Part shown: positions 1-35,892 of the stretch, piece by piece
Numbering within the stretch: the first letter of the stretch is position 1
How the letters are laid out: each line of letters starts with the position of its first letter
Source of the DNA: an uncultured Tateyamaria sp.
GTDB taxonomy: Bacteria; Pseudomonadota; Alphaproteobacteria; Rhodobacterales; Rhodobacteraceae
NCBI RefSeq assembly: GCF_947504105.1
Contig: NZ_CANNGP010000002.1
Coordinates: 1 to 64,000 of the forward strand
DNA length: 64,000 bases
Direction: 5' to 3'
The notes under the pieces: model-generated
Told to the model about the DNA's origin: nothing
The model's database searches: none
What the model saw: only the letters and a program-made list of their open reading frames with translations
Made by a program: the position numbers and the translations under genes

Positions 1-33
1 CGTTTCTTCATTCTGGATCGTCACTTTCATCAT
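1..33 (-). CDS. Start of an unread gene downstream of the retron RT (cut by window edge)
   Basis: Eleven codons are visible, beginning with two ATGs (MMKVTIQNEE...). The start lies 10 bases after the RT stop codon. An AAGGTGG Shine-Dalgarno-like stretch overlaps that stop and sits about 6 bases before the first ATG. Spacing and signal suggest a further gene of the same leftward operon. In retrons, genes beside the RT often encode the toxic effector or its partner, so this could be one, but its identity cannot be read here. Confidence 0.45.
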   Translation of the reverse strand, partial: MMKVTIQNEET

Positions 34-43
34 GCGATCCACC

Positions 44-1045
44 TTAACGACCGGTCCGAAATTCCGCGACCACCTCTTTGAGCCGGAATGCTTTCGCACG
101 TTTTTGTCGGATCGAGTTCATCTCACTAGAGAGTTTTTGTCCACGTGGGGATGCTTTTCCAACATTGTGACGTATCCCGCCCAGATGACCAAGAAGCCTA
201 GCTGATGCGGTATCCAATTCATCAAGTGATGCCGCATTTTTGAACTCTCGCCATAGTTCTCTCGACTTTAGCTCGGCTCTGTTGGGTACCACCAAGTTGC
301 TTCCGACAACCCCGACACCTGTTATGAAAACTGCCTTGTTTCCGGTCCAGTAGGCCAATTTATGAGACTGCAGGCCATTTGATGAGATAATCTGACGAAG
401 TTCTGAGACAAATTGTCCAGTTATTGCGTCTCCCGAGAGGGTTAGATCATCGACCCACACAGTATGTGCTAAGTTATGTGTTTCACATAGGTCTGAAATT
501 GCGTTGAACATAGGACGATGGACAAGCGATGCGAGAACTGGCGTAAGCGGCGAGCCAAAGCAAGCCTTGTCGTCAGCGGTCGCGATATGGGCAATTAATC
601 CAGCGACGTCTCCTGCTATGCCAAACTGCTCAACGAGAGATTTTCGGATCTTGCTGCGAGAAGTTGATGGGTAGAACTGCTTGACATCCAGTGTGAGGTA
701 TTGGACTGCCTCAAGGTGTGCGGCAGCATTGTCACGCTGTGACCGGTGTTTCCTCGGGCTCATCAAGTAGCTCGGCTGAACAATCTTATTGAAGTGAAAT
801 TTAAGACGTTCATGAACCGCGCGTAATCGTCCTTCTGGATAGACAAGGTTGCGTGTTTTCCCCCCGGTTTCGATTGTTCTACGAACAATGAAGGTTTCTT
901 TAAAACGCGGTGTCGCAAGCTTTTGTAGTTCGCTTTTGGTTTCCTTGACCAGAGCGGCAACATCACGTTGCGTAGGATTTTGCGCGAAGGGGGATCGTTC
1001 TAGTTCGTACCGCTCGTGGGCCTTAAGAGTTCGACGCTTGGGCAT
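44..1045 (-). CDS. Retron-type reverse transcriptase
   Basis: A 333-aa RNA-directed DNA polymerase. Seen in the sequence: RT motif A with catalytic Asp at residue 120 (LDVKQFYPS, 119-127), a motif-B-like GSPLTPVLAS (164-173), a catalytic box WVDD at 197-200 followed by LTLSG, an NAAAH at 106-110 matching the retron-specific NAxxH motif, and an ITG at 241-243 where retron RTs carry VTG. Length fits stand-alone retron RTs (about 300-350 aa). There is no group II intron maturase domain. The ATG overlaps the end of the upstream HTH gene by 23 bases, indicating coupled translation. The first residue of the usual YxDD box is Trp, which is unusual. Retron RTs copy part of a linked RNA into msDNA and act in anti-phage defence with partner proteins; assignment to defence here is inference. 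Confidence 0.88.
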   Translation of the reverse strand: MPKRRTLKAHERYELERSPFAQNPTQRDVAALVKETKSELQKLATPRFKETFIVRRTIETGGKTRNLVYPEGRLRAVHERLKFHFNKIVQPSYLMSPRKHRSQRDNAAAHLEAVQYLTLDVKQFYPSTSRSKIRKSLVEQFGIAGDVAGLIAHIATADDKACFGSPLTPVLASLVHRPMFNAISDLCETHNLAHTVWVDDLTLSGDAITGQFVSELRQIISSNGLQSHKLAYWTGNKAVFITGVGVVGSNLVVPNRAELKSRELWREFKNAASLDELDTASARLLGHLGGIRHNVGKASPRGQKLSSEMNSIRQKRAKAFRLKEVVAEFRTGR

Positions 1046-1358
1046 GATCTGGTTCCGCTGGCTTCATCTTTTCCAATAGGTCCAAAGCCTTTCGAGCAAC
1101 AATCAAACGCCCCCGTCTAACAGGTGCATCCCCCTCAATTTCTTCGGCAAAAAACATTAACTGCGATTTTTTCACACCTAATGCTTCGCTATATCGCTCT
1201 AAGGTTTCCAAGGTTACAGACTTAGTGCCGCGCTCGATCTCTGAGACCATAGCTTGGGACATTCCTAGCGCCTTCGCCATGTCCATTTGCGAGTATCCCC
1301 AATACAAACGGGAGAGCGTGAGCGCTTCGTTGATCATTGCTTTTTGCTCGCTACGCAT
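1023..1358 (-). CDS. XRE/Cro-type helix-turn-helix protein of the retron operon
   Basis: A 111-aa protein. Residues about 12-66 form an HTH_3/XRE DNA-binding domain (GYSQMDMAKALGMSQAMVSEIERG). A charged C-terminal tail of about 45 residues follows. It starts at an ATG preceded by AGGA at about 8 bases. Its 3' end overlaps the RT start by 23 bases, so the two are very likely co-translated. One described retron class has an HTH protein as accessory partner (type VI in the Mestre et al. scheme, from memory). It could be the operon repressor, an antitoxin-like partner, or the retron accessory protein itself; the sequence does not decide. Confidence 0.8.
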   Translation of the reverse strand: MRSEQKAMINEALTLSRLYWGYSQMDMAKALGMSQAMVSEIERGTKSVTLETLERYSEALGVKKSQLMFFAEEIEGDAPVRRGRLIVARKALDLLEKMKPAEPDHAQASNS

Positions 1359-1373
1359 CGGCCAATCCTAGGG

Positions 1374-1708
1374 CTGTGAAGGGGTCACCGCCGCCAACCT
1401 TCCAAGCGACAGCGATCACTCGCCGAAGTCCCAGTCCAAGCTCAGAAGTCGAGCAATGGTCACGACGGCGGTCCAAACGAACCGCCATTTGGAAGGTTTC
1501 TTGCGATGCCGCCGCTGGTGCTGAACTTTTTTCTTTCGCATGGTTTTTACTCCTCGATCCCGGCCGGAAATGGCCCCCGTAGGAATGAGGAAGAAGATCA
1601 GCGGCGTTTGACCCCTTACATGCCGCACCCAGTCCCGGATGGGTGCGGCGCGCAGCCAGCTCCCGTGTCGAGACGCAGATGAGAGACGAAGGCAATAAAC
1701 CTTCACAG
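1374..1708 (-). ncRNA. Alternative larger fold-back of the retron leader
   Basis: CTGTGAAGG at 1374-1382 is the exact complement of 1700-1708. Nested inside, AACCTTCCAA at 1396-1405 is the exact complement of 1489-1498 and encloses a 6-bp GGCGGT/ACCGCC hairpin. The outer pair ends just upstream of the HTH start, where a retron a2 arm could lie. Nine- and ten-base complements can occur by chance in about 400 bases, and this model would contain the small ORF, so it is less favoured than the compact model. Confidence 0.22.
1416..1541 (-). CDS. Small basic peptide with hydrophobic C-terminal half (41 aa)
   Basis: The ATG at 1541 is preceded by a strong GAGGAG at 8 bases spacing. The N-terminal half is Arg/Lys/His-rich (MRKKKVQHQRRHRKK). 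The second half contains a Trp-rich hydrophobic stretch (WRFVWTAVVTIARLL) and an acidic end. The family is not recognised. It lies between the leader hairpins and the HTH gene in the same direction. It could be a membrane-active toxin-like peptide or a nucleic-acid binder, or the frame may be fortuitous within a structured RNA; the good ribosome-binding site favours translation. Confidence 0.45.
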   Translation of the reverse strand: MRKKKVQHQRRHRKKPSKWRFVWTAVVTIARLLSLDWDFGE

Positions 1709-1750
1709 GGCCTCTGGCCCCAGTTCTCGTCGGGTTCTGCATACGTAAGG
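1614..1750 (-). ncRNA. Candidate retron msr-msd RNA (compact model)
   Basis: Read leftward, the RNA would open with CCUUACGUAUGC (1750-1739) and close with GCAUGUAAGG (1623-1614). These pair over 10 bp with one 2-nt bulge, as an a1/a2 duplex would. Between them lie two short stem-loops (GGGCC-AGA-GGCCC; GAAGG-7 nt-CCUUC) and, next to the closing arm, a perfect 9-bp hairpin with a 10-nt loop (1622-1649, GCCGCACCC / GGGTGCGGC). Order and size resemble msr stem-loops followed by an msd hairpin. The exact ends and the branching G are not established. A larger alternative fold-back (1374-1708) also exists. Confidence 0.4.
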
Positions 1751-1790
1751 TTCATCACAGGGGTTTAGGTAAGTGATATTGAAGTCCGGC

Positions 1791-1827
1791 GCAAGTAAAA
1801 TATCGCTTTTAGTAATATTATACTTGC
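1791..1827 (-). promoter_or_regulatory. Interrupted palindrome with TATAAT box upstream of the retron leader
   Basis: Arms GCAAGTA-A-AATAT (1791-1803) and ATATT-A-TACTTGC (1815-1827) are complementary except for one central mismatch; the loop is 11 bases. On the minus strand a perfect TATAAT (1822-1817) lies in one arm, pointing toward the retron. No good TTGACA-like element is seen 15-18 bases upstream. A palindrome over a -10 box fits an operator for the HTH protein; this is inference. Confidence 0.4.
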
Positions 1828-2108: not shown

Positions 2109-2184
2109 TGGTGAGCCGTGCAGGGTTCGAACCTGCGACCCACTGATTAAAAGTCAGTTGCTCTACCAACTGAGCTAACGGCCC
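2109..2184 (-). tRNA. tRNA-Lys (anticodon TTT)
   Basis: A 76-nt cloverleaf including an encoded CCA. The 7-bp acceptor stem starts GGGCCGT. The D-arm contains AGCTCAGTTGGTAGAGC, the anticodon loop CTTTTAA and the T-loop GTTCGAA. The 3' end points toward the retron region, a common geometry for islands integrated at tRNA genes. Confidence 0.95.
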
Positions 2185-9154: not shown

Positions 9155-9220
9155 GATACTGGTCCGTGATACGTCGCGTTCCTCTTGCCTTGGGCGACGT
9201 CACTTGGCAACCTGACGCTG

Positions 9221-9372
9221 TTCTCAGGGCGGGGTGAAATTCCCCACCGGTGGTATGCGGGCCCAATCAAACGGTGACCCGCGAGCCCACGAGCGCCCCG
9301 CAACGCGGGGGTCTAGCAGATCAGGTGAGAGGCCTGAGCCGACGGTTACAGTCCGGATGAAAGAGAACGTGC
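9221..9372 (+). promoter_or_regulatory. FMN riboswitch (RFN element)
   Basis: The conserved RFN blocks are present in order: CAGGGCGGGGTGAAATTCC, CCCACCGGTGGT, GACCCGCGAGC, a variable hairpin, AGCAGAT.AGGTGAGAGGCC, GAGCCGACGGTTACAGTCCGG and GATGAAAGAGAACG. It lies 86 bases upstream of ribH and should repress it when FMN is abundant. Confidence 0.96.
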
Positions 9373-13061: not shown

Positions 13062-13111
13062 CGCATCCTCCATCAGAGAGGCGGCGGGATAAGGGTCTTG
13101 GGATAAGCCAA

Positions 13112-13193
13112 ACCTTCCCTCCGCCGGTGTTAACCGGTTCAGGTTCAACGGGTTCGCATCGCGCATCTCAGCCCTTTCGGACACCCCGAGGTA
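13112..13193 (-). promoter_or_regulatory. TPP riboswitch (THI element) of thiBPQ
   Basis: Read on the minus strand: CTCGGGGTGTCCG, GGGCTGAGAT, ACCCGTTGAACCTGAACCGG, TTAACACCGGCGGAGGGA. These are the conserved P1-P5 segments of the TPP aptamer, including CTGAGA and ACCTGA. The aptamer ends about 50 bases before the thiB start. It should shut off thiBPQ when TPP is plentiful. Confidence 0.96.
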
Positions 13194-13237
13194 GGTCCGG
13201 ATTTAGTCGGGAAAGGCACCCTTGGCAACCATCAGGA

Positions 13238-35811: not shown

Positions 35812-35884
35812 CACCACCCCGCCTGCACCCGTAAATGCGGCGGTGGGACACCCTTCCCCAACGAAGGGCGAATATCTGTAAGGA
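35812..35884 (+). promoter_or_regulatory. Structured leader of serC, probably the alphaproteobacterial serC RNA motif
   Basis: The serC 5' leader folds into an imperfect CACC..GCC..GCA / TGCGGCGGTG stem (35812-35845) and a perfect 6-bp CCCTTC-CCCAAC-GAAGGG hairpin (35851-35868), followed by the AAGGAT ribosome-binding site. A conserved serC leader motif is known upstream of serC in Alphaproteobacteria (Rfam). Position fits; match to the consensus was not computed. Confidence 0.5.
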
Positions 35885-35892
35885 TAACATCA

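Follow-up and report, generated by a model that had tools for sequence, protein, structure and literature searches.

Which component of the little-studied type VI retrons acts as their effector? The question is raised by a locus at the left end of a 220-kb contig (NZ_CANNGP010000002.1, contig C2 of assembly GCF_947504105.1) from an uncultured Tateyamaria sp., of which we analyzed positions 1 to 64,000, hereafter the window; it starts at contig base 1, and all coordinates are window positions. On the minus strand the locus presents, in this order, a putative operator and promoter, a structured RNA of ~160 nt, a gene for a 41-residue peptide, a gene for an XRE-family helix-turn-helix (HTH) protein, and a reverse transcriptase (RT) gene. 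We propose, with a probability of roughly 55%, that this is a type VI retron in which the peptide acts on membranes as the effector and is kept silent by the HTH protein, by a hairpin in the leader of the peptide gene, and by a complex of the RT with multicopy single-stranded DNA (msDNA). By analogy, the operon is likely an anti-phage system. Its elements are as follows.

44..1045, minus strand: retron RT, 333 aa; PADLOC RT_VI, 2.3e-55; predicted fold best matching the retron Ec86 RT
1023..1358, minus strand: XRE-family HTH protein, 111 aa; PADLOC HTH_VI, 4e-26, 89.1 bits; Pfam HTH_3, 1.2e-11
1416..1541, minus strand: small open reading frame (ORF), 41 aa, candidate effector; arginine-rich N-terminus and hydrophobic helix, conserved in position and character
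1550..1591, minus strand: leader hairpin pairing the Shine-Dalgarno sequence (SD, 1555–1550), with a 5' bulge, TACGGG, at 1581–1576; covariation
1597..1758, minus strand: msr-msd-like non-coding RNA (ncRNA); covariation in three helices, covariance model
1601..1619, minus strand: putative a2 strand, pairing with a1
1622..1649, minus strand: msd-like G+C hairpin GCCGCACCC...GGGTGCGGC; 10 pairs, 99.1% of cells paired, 3 pairs compensatory
1741..1758, minus strand: putative a1 strand, pairing with 1601–1619
1766..1794, minus strand: putative promoter, assigned by eye; -35-like TTGCGC, 17-base spacer, -10-like TACCTA
1800..1818, minus strand: dyad ATATTACT-AAA-AGCGATAT, putative HTH operator; 0 mismatches to WTATYRCYNNNRGYRATWW

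Reverse transcriptase family and operon layout

The RT carries the motifs NAAAH (residues 106–110), WVDD (197–200) and ITG (241–243), in agreement with a preliminary description of this DNA that had noted NAAAH, ITG and the catalytic boxes. The N and H of NAxxH and the T and G of VTG (ITG in the window), which we take to be retron RT motifs, are invariant in 37/37 aligned RTs. The best PADLOC model is RT_VI (185.9 bits), followed by RT_III-A (103.3 bits), while the Pfam RVT_1 score of 23.6 lies under that model's cut-off of 29.6, so that Pfam by itself would miss the protein. A phmmer search of the PDB returned matches to retrons Ec86 (7e-9), Kva2 (4e-8) and Ec67 (0.009) only. With an AlphaFold2 model built from 37 sequences (mean predicted local distance difference test score 93.6), Foldseek placed chains of retron structures at ranks 1–18 in the PDB, ahead of a diversity-generating retroelement (DGR) RT at rank 19, a group II intron RT at rank 20, and the defence-associated RT DRT2 at rank 27. 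PADLOC, phmmer and Foldseek all put the RT closer to retron RTs than to those of DGRs, group II introns or the DRT/unknown-group (UG) families.

We placed the protein in a tree of 58 retron-like RTs (quick method, LG+G4), comprising 42 type VI rows (the window, 21 close and 20 distant relatives) and 16 other retron-like RTs; the tree held no group II, DGR or UG rows, and a long-branch warning came up for the outsiders. The 16 others are separated from the type VI rows with a Shimodaira–Hasegawa-like approximate likelihood ratio (SH-aLRT) support of 100, and the window falls on the type VI side, where it forms one clade with the 21 close relatives (SH-aLRT 100) on a long stem of 1.12 changes per column. 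WVDD is found in the window and in 21/21 close relatives; among the 20 distant type VI RTs, YVDD or YADD occurs in 19, and one is unmatched by the pattern. On the strength of the PADLOC profiles, the PDB and fold matches, the tree and the WVDD signature, the RT is a type VI retron RT from a divergent alphaproteobacterial subclade with WVDD instead of YxDD. Type VI retrons are reportedly named in the scheme of Mestre et al. 2020. The subtype that had been suspected as new is therefore a published type, and what is left of its novelty is a well-supported subclade with its own RNA and WVDD.

The companion HTH protein scored 89.1 bits with HTH_VI and 36.5 bits with the next PADLOC model, and no domain besides the HTH fold was matched in Pfam, PADLOC or NCBIfam. 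Its gene overlaps the RT gene by 23 bases (1023–1045), as had been described, and starts 57 bases after the stop of the small ORF. Together, the RT_VI and HTH_VI matches and the conservation of both the RNA and the tiny ORF bear out the classification as an HTH-associated retron. An RT search and an RT_VI model search of the window's genome both led to this single place.

The operon extends up to the contig edge, where the contig stops 43 bases past the RT stop codon, so that the region beyond the RT is not visible. The preliminary description had called the retron complete and had counted a further gene starting downstream as the fifth part of the operon; what lies there is a frame of 33 aa (99..1), overlapping the 3' end of the RT gene and continuing off the contig. 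ORFs of ≥30 aa that start near the RT stop in 11 relatives appear dissimilar by eye, and with no downstream gene seen to be common to them, and the contig ending there, we rejected a five-gene operon. The short RT, together with the second frame through the contig end (1–99), may be a real difference or an assembly-edge effect.

The small peptide gene and the hairpin over its Shine-Dalgarno sequence

The tiny basic ORF that had been reported upstream of the HTH gene is present (41 aa, 1541..1416) and is preceded by the SD GAGGAG at 1555–1550. Among the close loci, an ORF of 41–46 aa lies immediately upstream of the HTH gene in 23/23. More widely, of 81 loci in which our script found both RT and HTH (repeated places counted), 78 have a small ORF of 38–70 aa with an SD and a basic head before the HTH gene, encoding 56 distinct peptides; the three others are two loci at contig edges (L004 and L032) and a decayed copy (L025, described below). 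One locus, L003, was missed by the HTH filter though HTH and small ORF are both present; L041, a stretch with stops, was dropped, L041 and L051 are both absent from alignment A9, and L079–L081, L084 and L085 stood outside the structure predictions. The 56 peptides have a median net charge of +8. A filter on size, SD, basic head and hydrophobicity, fixed after the sequences had been viewed, was passed by 56/56 real peptides, 2/56 antisense and 15/280 shuffled sequences. In the structure model of the window peptide, residues 18–40 form a helix and the head is of low confidence.

Could the small ORF serve only through its translation, as a leader that regulates the downstream HTH gene, with a product that has no job of its own? 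Its location, 57 bases before the HTH start and behind a hairpin that hides its SD, would suit such a role. The amino acids, however, are conserved over synonymous sites: the nonsynonymous rate (dN) is below the synonymous rate (dS) in 46/46 pairs from three subgroups (17 of the 23 close loci, with equal lengths within groups), only slightly so in the pair of the window and a Leisingera plasmid relative (0.324 vs 0.363). Likewise, a basic head followed by a helix, either hydrophobic or amphipathic, is kept throughout the 56 distinct peptides of 41–67 aa, and an SD-like motif precedes a start codon of the HTH frame in 53/56 loci. We therefore regard a jobless leader peptide as improbable and attach little weight to it.

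A longer frame that contains the window peptide had no match in Pfam, PADLOC or NCBIfam, and among three peptides queried against PHROGs, the Klebsiella phage peptide alone matched, with function unknown. In seven plasmid and phage records, the small ORF is annotated with its own start in L083, lies inside a longer call in L082, and is unannotated in the five others (L079, L080, L081, L084 and L085), the plasmid gene table being incomplete by its own description.

Upstream of the start codon, the leader hairpin pairs the SD. In the alignment of the 23 close loci, 83.8% of its cells are paired, compared to 74.0% in shuffled alignments, and 58 cells carry double changes, compared to 27.9; in neither case did any of 500 shuffles score as high. 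Predicted SD accessibility in these loci has a median of 0.15, versus 0.39 when shuffled (p = 1.3e-6). The architecture of the helix is more telling than its pairing. A 5' bulge of 5–11 nt in the SD helix is found in 47/56 loci, versus 45/1120 shuffles, 2/53 HTH starts and 8/49 RT starts, and a bulge containing GG in 43/56 loci, versus 8/1120 shuffles, 0/53 HTH starts and 0/49 RT starts. The bulge reads TACGGG in the window's clade and GGCGA in many other type VI loci. By eye, L035, L051, L062, L067 and L005 each carry GGCGA at two places, one being the loop of the msd-like hairpin and the other within or next to the leader bulge.

The peptide and this bulge also bear on the main rival, in which the peptide would be an RNA-binding cofactor, with its head on the ncRNA or leader hairpin and its helix on the RT or HTH protein, the effector being the HTH protein or another, unseen part. 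In the close clade the head, HQRR(R/H)xR, is the best-conserved part of the peptide, with Q9 and R10 invariant in 23/23, and the conserved G-rich bulge in the hairpin at the peptide's own start could be its binding site. Other type VI clades, however, lack the arginine-rich motif as such and keep only the basic head with a hydrophobic or amphipathic helix; two layers of silencing would be needless for an RNA-binding cofactor; and the HTH protein matched no domain other than its HTH fold in Pfam, PADLOC or NCBIfam. On balance, we consider the cofactor role doubtful, though deserving of attention, and prefer the peptide as effector.

Putative operator, non-coding RNA and proposed mechanism

The putative operator matches the pattern WTATYRCY-NNN-RGYRATWW (WTATYRCYNNNRGYRATWW), which occurs with ≤1 mismatch in 23/23 close-clade loci, 271–286 bases upstream of the small ORF; around it, apart from the A/T-rich edges and the -35 region, most alignment columns hold ≤0.5 bit. 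A related dyad, TTCGCYNNNRGCGAA (≤2 mismatches, 260–362 bases upstream), was found in 23/24 other type VI loci outside a group from P2-like phages, the sole miss being L064, and in 9/636 control stretches; both patterns were defined after viewing the sequences. By eye, a half-site RGCGAA recurs in many type VI loci. Self-complementarity alone was rejected as evidence: among 2660 random stretches of 215 bases, 1380 contained a dyad with 6 of 8 matches, 406 with 7 and 35 with 8, which makes the window's symmetry not significant, and it is therefore conservation and position that count. Downstream of the dyad, the transcription start predicted from the putative promoter coincides with the first base of the RNA, and several relatives have TTGAC(A)-n17-TATATT-like promoters (by eye).

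From its membership in the XRE family, we infer that the HTH protein binds the dyad as an autoregulator. The same protein might instead act as the effector, or counter phage by regulating phage or host genes, and be titrated by the RT-msDNA complex, with the peptide playing a minor part. It is the accessory protein for which PADLOC has a type VI model (HTH_VI), and GGCGA is common, by eye, to the operator half-sites and the loops of msd-like hairpins in some clades. Yet a conserved operator at the HTH gene's own promoter explains the protein as an autoregulator, and we find an effector role for it quite unlikely compared with one for the peptide.

A conserved structured ncRNA adjoins the operon. 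We aligned the 23 close loci, window included (alignment A4), and RNAalifold predicted 40 pairs, 17 of them with compensatory changes. In the three helices, 98.6% of cells are paired (92.1% in shuffles) and 44 cells carry double changes (13.2 in shuffles, with 0/500 shuffles as high), whereas pairing drops to 37–51% in slid controls; the number of pair types was no higher than in shuffles (18 vs 18.0). A covariance model built from these 23 rows, the window among them (R2), scored 149.6 bits for the window at 1756–1597 and 115.9 bits for the decayed copy. Rfam gave no match at the ncRNA at the gathering threshold, and the minimum free energy of the window leader alone showed a modest gain over shuffles (z = -1.92, 5/200 as good). 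In other type VI clades, by eye, a hairpin stands at a similar distance, often followed by an AGGGGTT-like motif.

The structured leader of the preliminary description thus resolves into an RNA at ~1758–1597 and a hairpin at 1591–1550, both with paired and double-changed cells above all 500 shuffles. That description had named clustering with a non-retron RT family and the lack of a conserved leader RNA as outcomes that would speak against a retron. The RT is nearer to retrons than to group II intron, DGR or UG RTs, and the leader RNA is conserved with covariation across the 23 homologous loci, so neither outcome was seen.

The putative a1/a2 stem is less certain. Pairing energies average -14.2 kcal/mol in the window's clade, versus -8.1 when shuffled, and reach -16.1 versus -10.4 in the pair formed by Sphingomonas and L033. 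When a1 and a2 were swapped between clades, there was no general loss of pairing, and covariation therefore does not support the stem.

These elements suggest the following mechanism. The operon would be transcribed as ncRNA, small peptide, HTH and RT, and the RT would copy part of the ncRNA into msDNA. As a first lock, the HTH protein would occupy the dyad next to the promoter that drives the entire operon, and as a second, the hairpin would conceal the SD of the peptide gene and control its translation; comparison among loci establishes operator and hairpin as sequence elements, and their action is what the model adds. Other retrons suggest, by analogy, that the peptide or its translation would be neutralized by the complex of RT and msDNA, possibly joined by the HTH protein. 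Phage interference with this complex would then free the peptide, leading to membrane damage and aborted infection. A gene that seems to be switched off twice is the best candidate for the weapon, and so tight a lock fits a harmful product; the peptide is thus most likely the effector, presumably a small membrane-active toxin.

Several observations weigh against this reading. For the peptide, a 17-residue stretch with a mean Kyte-Doolittle value ≥1.6 is found in just 23 of the 56 sequences, the window peptide reaching 1.35; 43 reach ≥1.0 (20 of them at 1.0–1.6), and 13 stay below 1.0, of which 9 belong to the P2-like group, where the helix is amphipathic. The arginine-rich head might serve to bind RNA. 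For the hairpin, two of the five covariation measures lie near shuffles, with 13 pairs showing double changes versus 10.7 in shuffles (36/500 as high) and 27 further pair types versus 28.2 (421/500). In 6 of the 23 close loci, at least 16/50 shuffles hide the SD equally well (11/50 for the window); and pairing of at least half the SD is seen in 55/56 small-ORF leaders, yet also in 734/1120 shuffles, 41/53 HTH starts and 28/49 RT starts. SD pairing alone is therefore not distinctive in these comparisons, whereas the bulged architecture is. The dyad operator TTCGCYNNNRGCGAA is present in 0/10 P2-like loci. Searched against other type VI clades (39 sources), the ncRNA covariance model returned nothing credible, only E values of 0.36–0.76, and the reach into those clades that we had expected did not hold; in two of the four clades, a1 and a2 pair weakly (-10.1 vs -8.5 and -9.3 vs -8.1 kcal/mol). 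The window RT is 6–21 residues shorter than in 11 relatives, which also qualifies the description of the retron as complete. Finally, the operator pattern, small-ORF filter and GG-bulge criterion were set post hoc on related rows, and because many rows are close kin (~10 P2-like, 6 L008-like), the counts do not represent independent events.

A bolder version would make type VI retrons RNA-gated toxin switches, in which the G-rich leader bulge is read by the retron itself, so that a membrane toxin encoded on the same transcript would be translated in direct response to the state of reverse transcription. Either the bulge would pair with the msr motif ACCCG, near-invariant in the window's clade, or an RT bound to a similar msd loop would read it. 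What prompts the idea is that the bulge is conserved and that, in the window's clade, it is complementary to ACCCG; as both are nearly invariant, there is almost no covariation between them. We offer it as speculation that is unlikely to hold.

Distribution, genomic site and known systems

RT_VI matched (E ≤0.001) in 91 of 390 genomes of the order and in none of the eight other same-genus genomes of that sample; weaker RT_VI hits fit another retron model better in 8/8 cases checked. Among the loci fetched from this search, a type VI locus with a recognizable HTH gene occurs in 13 genomes, one of them decayed. One genome scan yielded 17 loci, using an alignment of the six closer RTs, one of nine distant RTs being too diverse, and viral contigs yielded 47. 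RT matches in 140 plasmid records include one above 60% identity, and those in 23 phage records are all below 60%. The Leisingera plasmid relative has 71% RT identity, and other close relatives come from Ruegeria, Paracoccus, Devosia, Stappia, Rhizobium, Shinella, Sphingobium, Sphingomonas and others.

The decayed copy, L025, belongs to another genus (G256 contig 9) and is 94% identical to the window in the RT stretch and 86% upstream. Stops and frame changes disrupt its RT, and it lacks window positions 1575–1151, a deletion that takes out the SD-bearing second half of the leader hairpin, the entire small ORF and the greater part of the HTH gene. This joint loss of peptide and HTH protein, in a single case, is compatible with the removal of a toxin together with its control.

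Upstream, the operon is bordered by a tRNA gene:

2109..2184, minus strand: tRNA-Lys(TTT), by ARAGORN; upstream of the operon, at the border of a variable region

The tRNA lies next to dapF, and over ten kilobases on its retron side no ORF ≥100 aa is shared among the six same-genus genomes compared (six of 19 others; blastp 1e-20). A scan of eight proteins from two of these six genomes (loci L134–L139) revealed an SspABCD phosphorothioation defence operon next to the tRNA in one genome and, in another, a 992-aa protein with partial matches to the PADLOC models Ppl and mad3. The lack of shared ORFs and the SspABCD operon mark this site as variable and able to accommodate defence systems. A family-wide association with tRNA-Lys was rejected: tRNA genes lie within the flanks retrieved for 8/22 relatives and are of seven kinds, none of them Lys. 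Elsewhere in the window, Rfam identified ordinary elements, namely an FMN riboswitch (9216–9372), a TPP riboswitch (13099–13198, minus strand) and a serC leader (35841–35892).

Two kinds of known system resemble the proposed arrangement. In retron Ec48 (type IV), a membrane effector is guarded by RT-msDNA; that effector is a larger, two-transmembrane protein and the system is not known to have an HTH gene, whereas the candidate effector here is smaller and accompanied by an HTH gene. Type I toxin-antitoxin peptides (TisB, Hok, TimP) are tiny, basic and hydrophobic and have a structurally hidden SD; the window peptide is likewise tiny and basic, its SD is paired in the leader hairpin and its hydrophobicity is borderline, while its operon differs in including HTH and RT genes. 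Type I toxins are countered by an antisense RNA; none is known at this locus, where no search aimed at one was made. Among type VI retrons, those of P2-like phages and of Shewanella phage MuM16-1 (ST147-VIM1phi7.1, P2_2H1) have the same order of small ORF, HTH and RT and an SD hairpin, theirs with a GGCGA bulge. Their RTs are only ~30% identical to that of the window; in the P2-like group, the peptide is amphipathic rather than hydrophobic and the dyad operator is missing, while MuM16-1 has a dyad.

In the excerpts of PMC8541194, which cites Mestre 2020, type VI is an RT with a DNA-binding protein and a small auxiliary protein, so that the type and its small auxiliary protein are already known. 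The window agrees in its RT_VI and HTH_VI matches and in a small auxiliary ORF near the HTH gene, and its subclade differs from type VI retrons generally in WVDD, an ncRNA of its own and a peptide rich in arginine. According to the same excerpts, a transmembrane segment was seen only in p31 of MuM16-1; that phage's record places p31, a frame of 284 aa, on the opposite strand and leaves a 48-aa ORF that fits our family unannotated. Retron_VI is noted on Acinetobacter plasmids in excerpts of PMC13125923. A type VI effector, operator or leader hairpin is not described in the excerpts of PMC12548924, PMC13405049, PMC8867640, PMC9252829, PMC13125923 or PMC12262390. In the partial texts searched, to which the founding Mestre 2020 paper did not belong, we found no paper that names a type VI effector, and no account of the operator, the SD-hiding hairpin or the family-wide character of the peptide.

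The comparisons point to one specific micropeptide gene, often unannotated, as the effector candidate across type VI clades, and supply the operator and hairpin expected to control it. If this is true, searches limited to RT and HTH genes miss the working part of type VI systems, and retrons would gain a class of ~50-residue effectors whose translation is controlled inside the same transcript.

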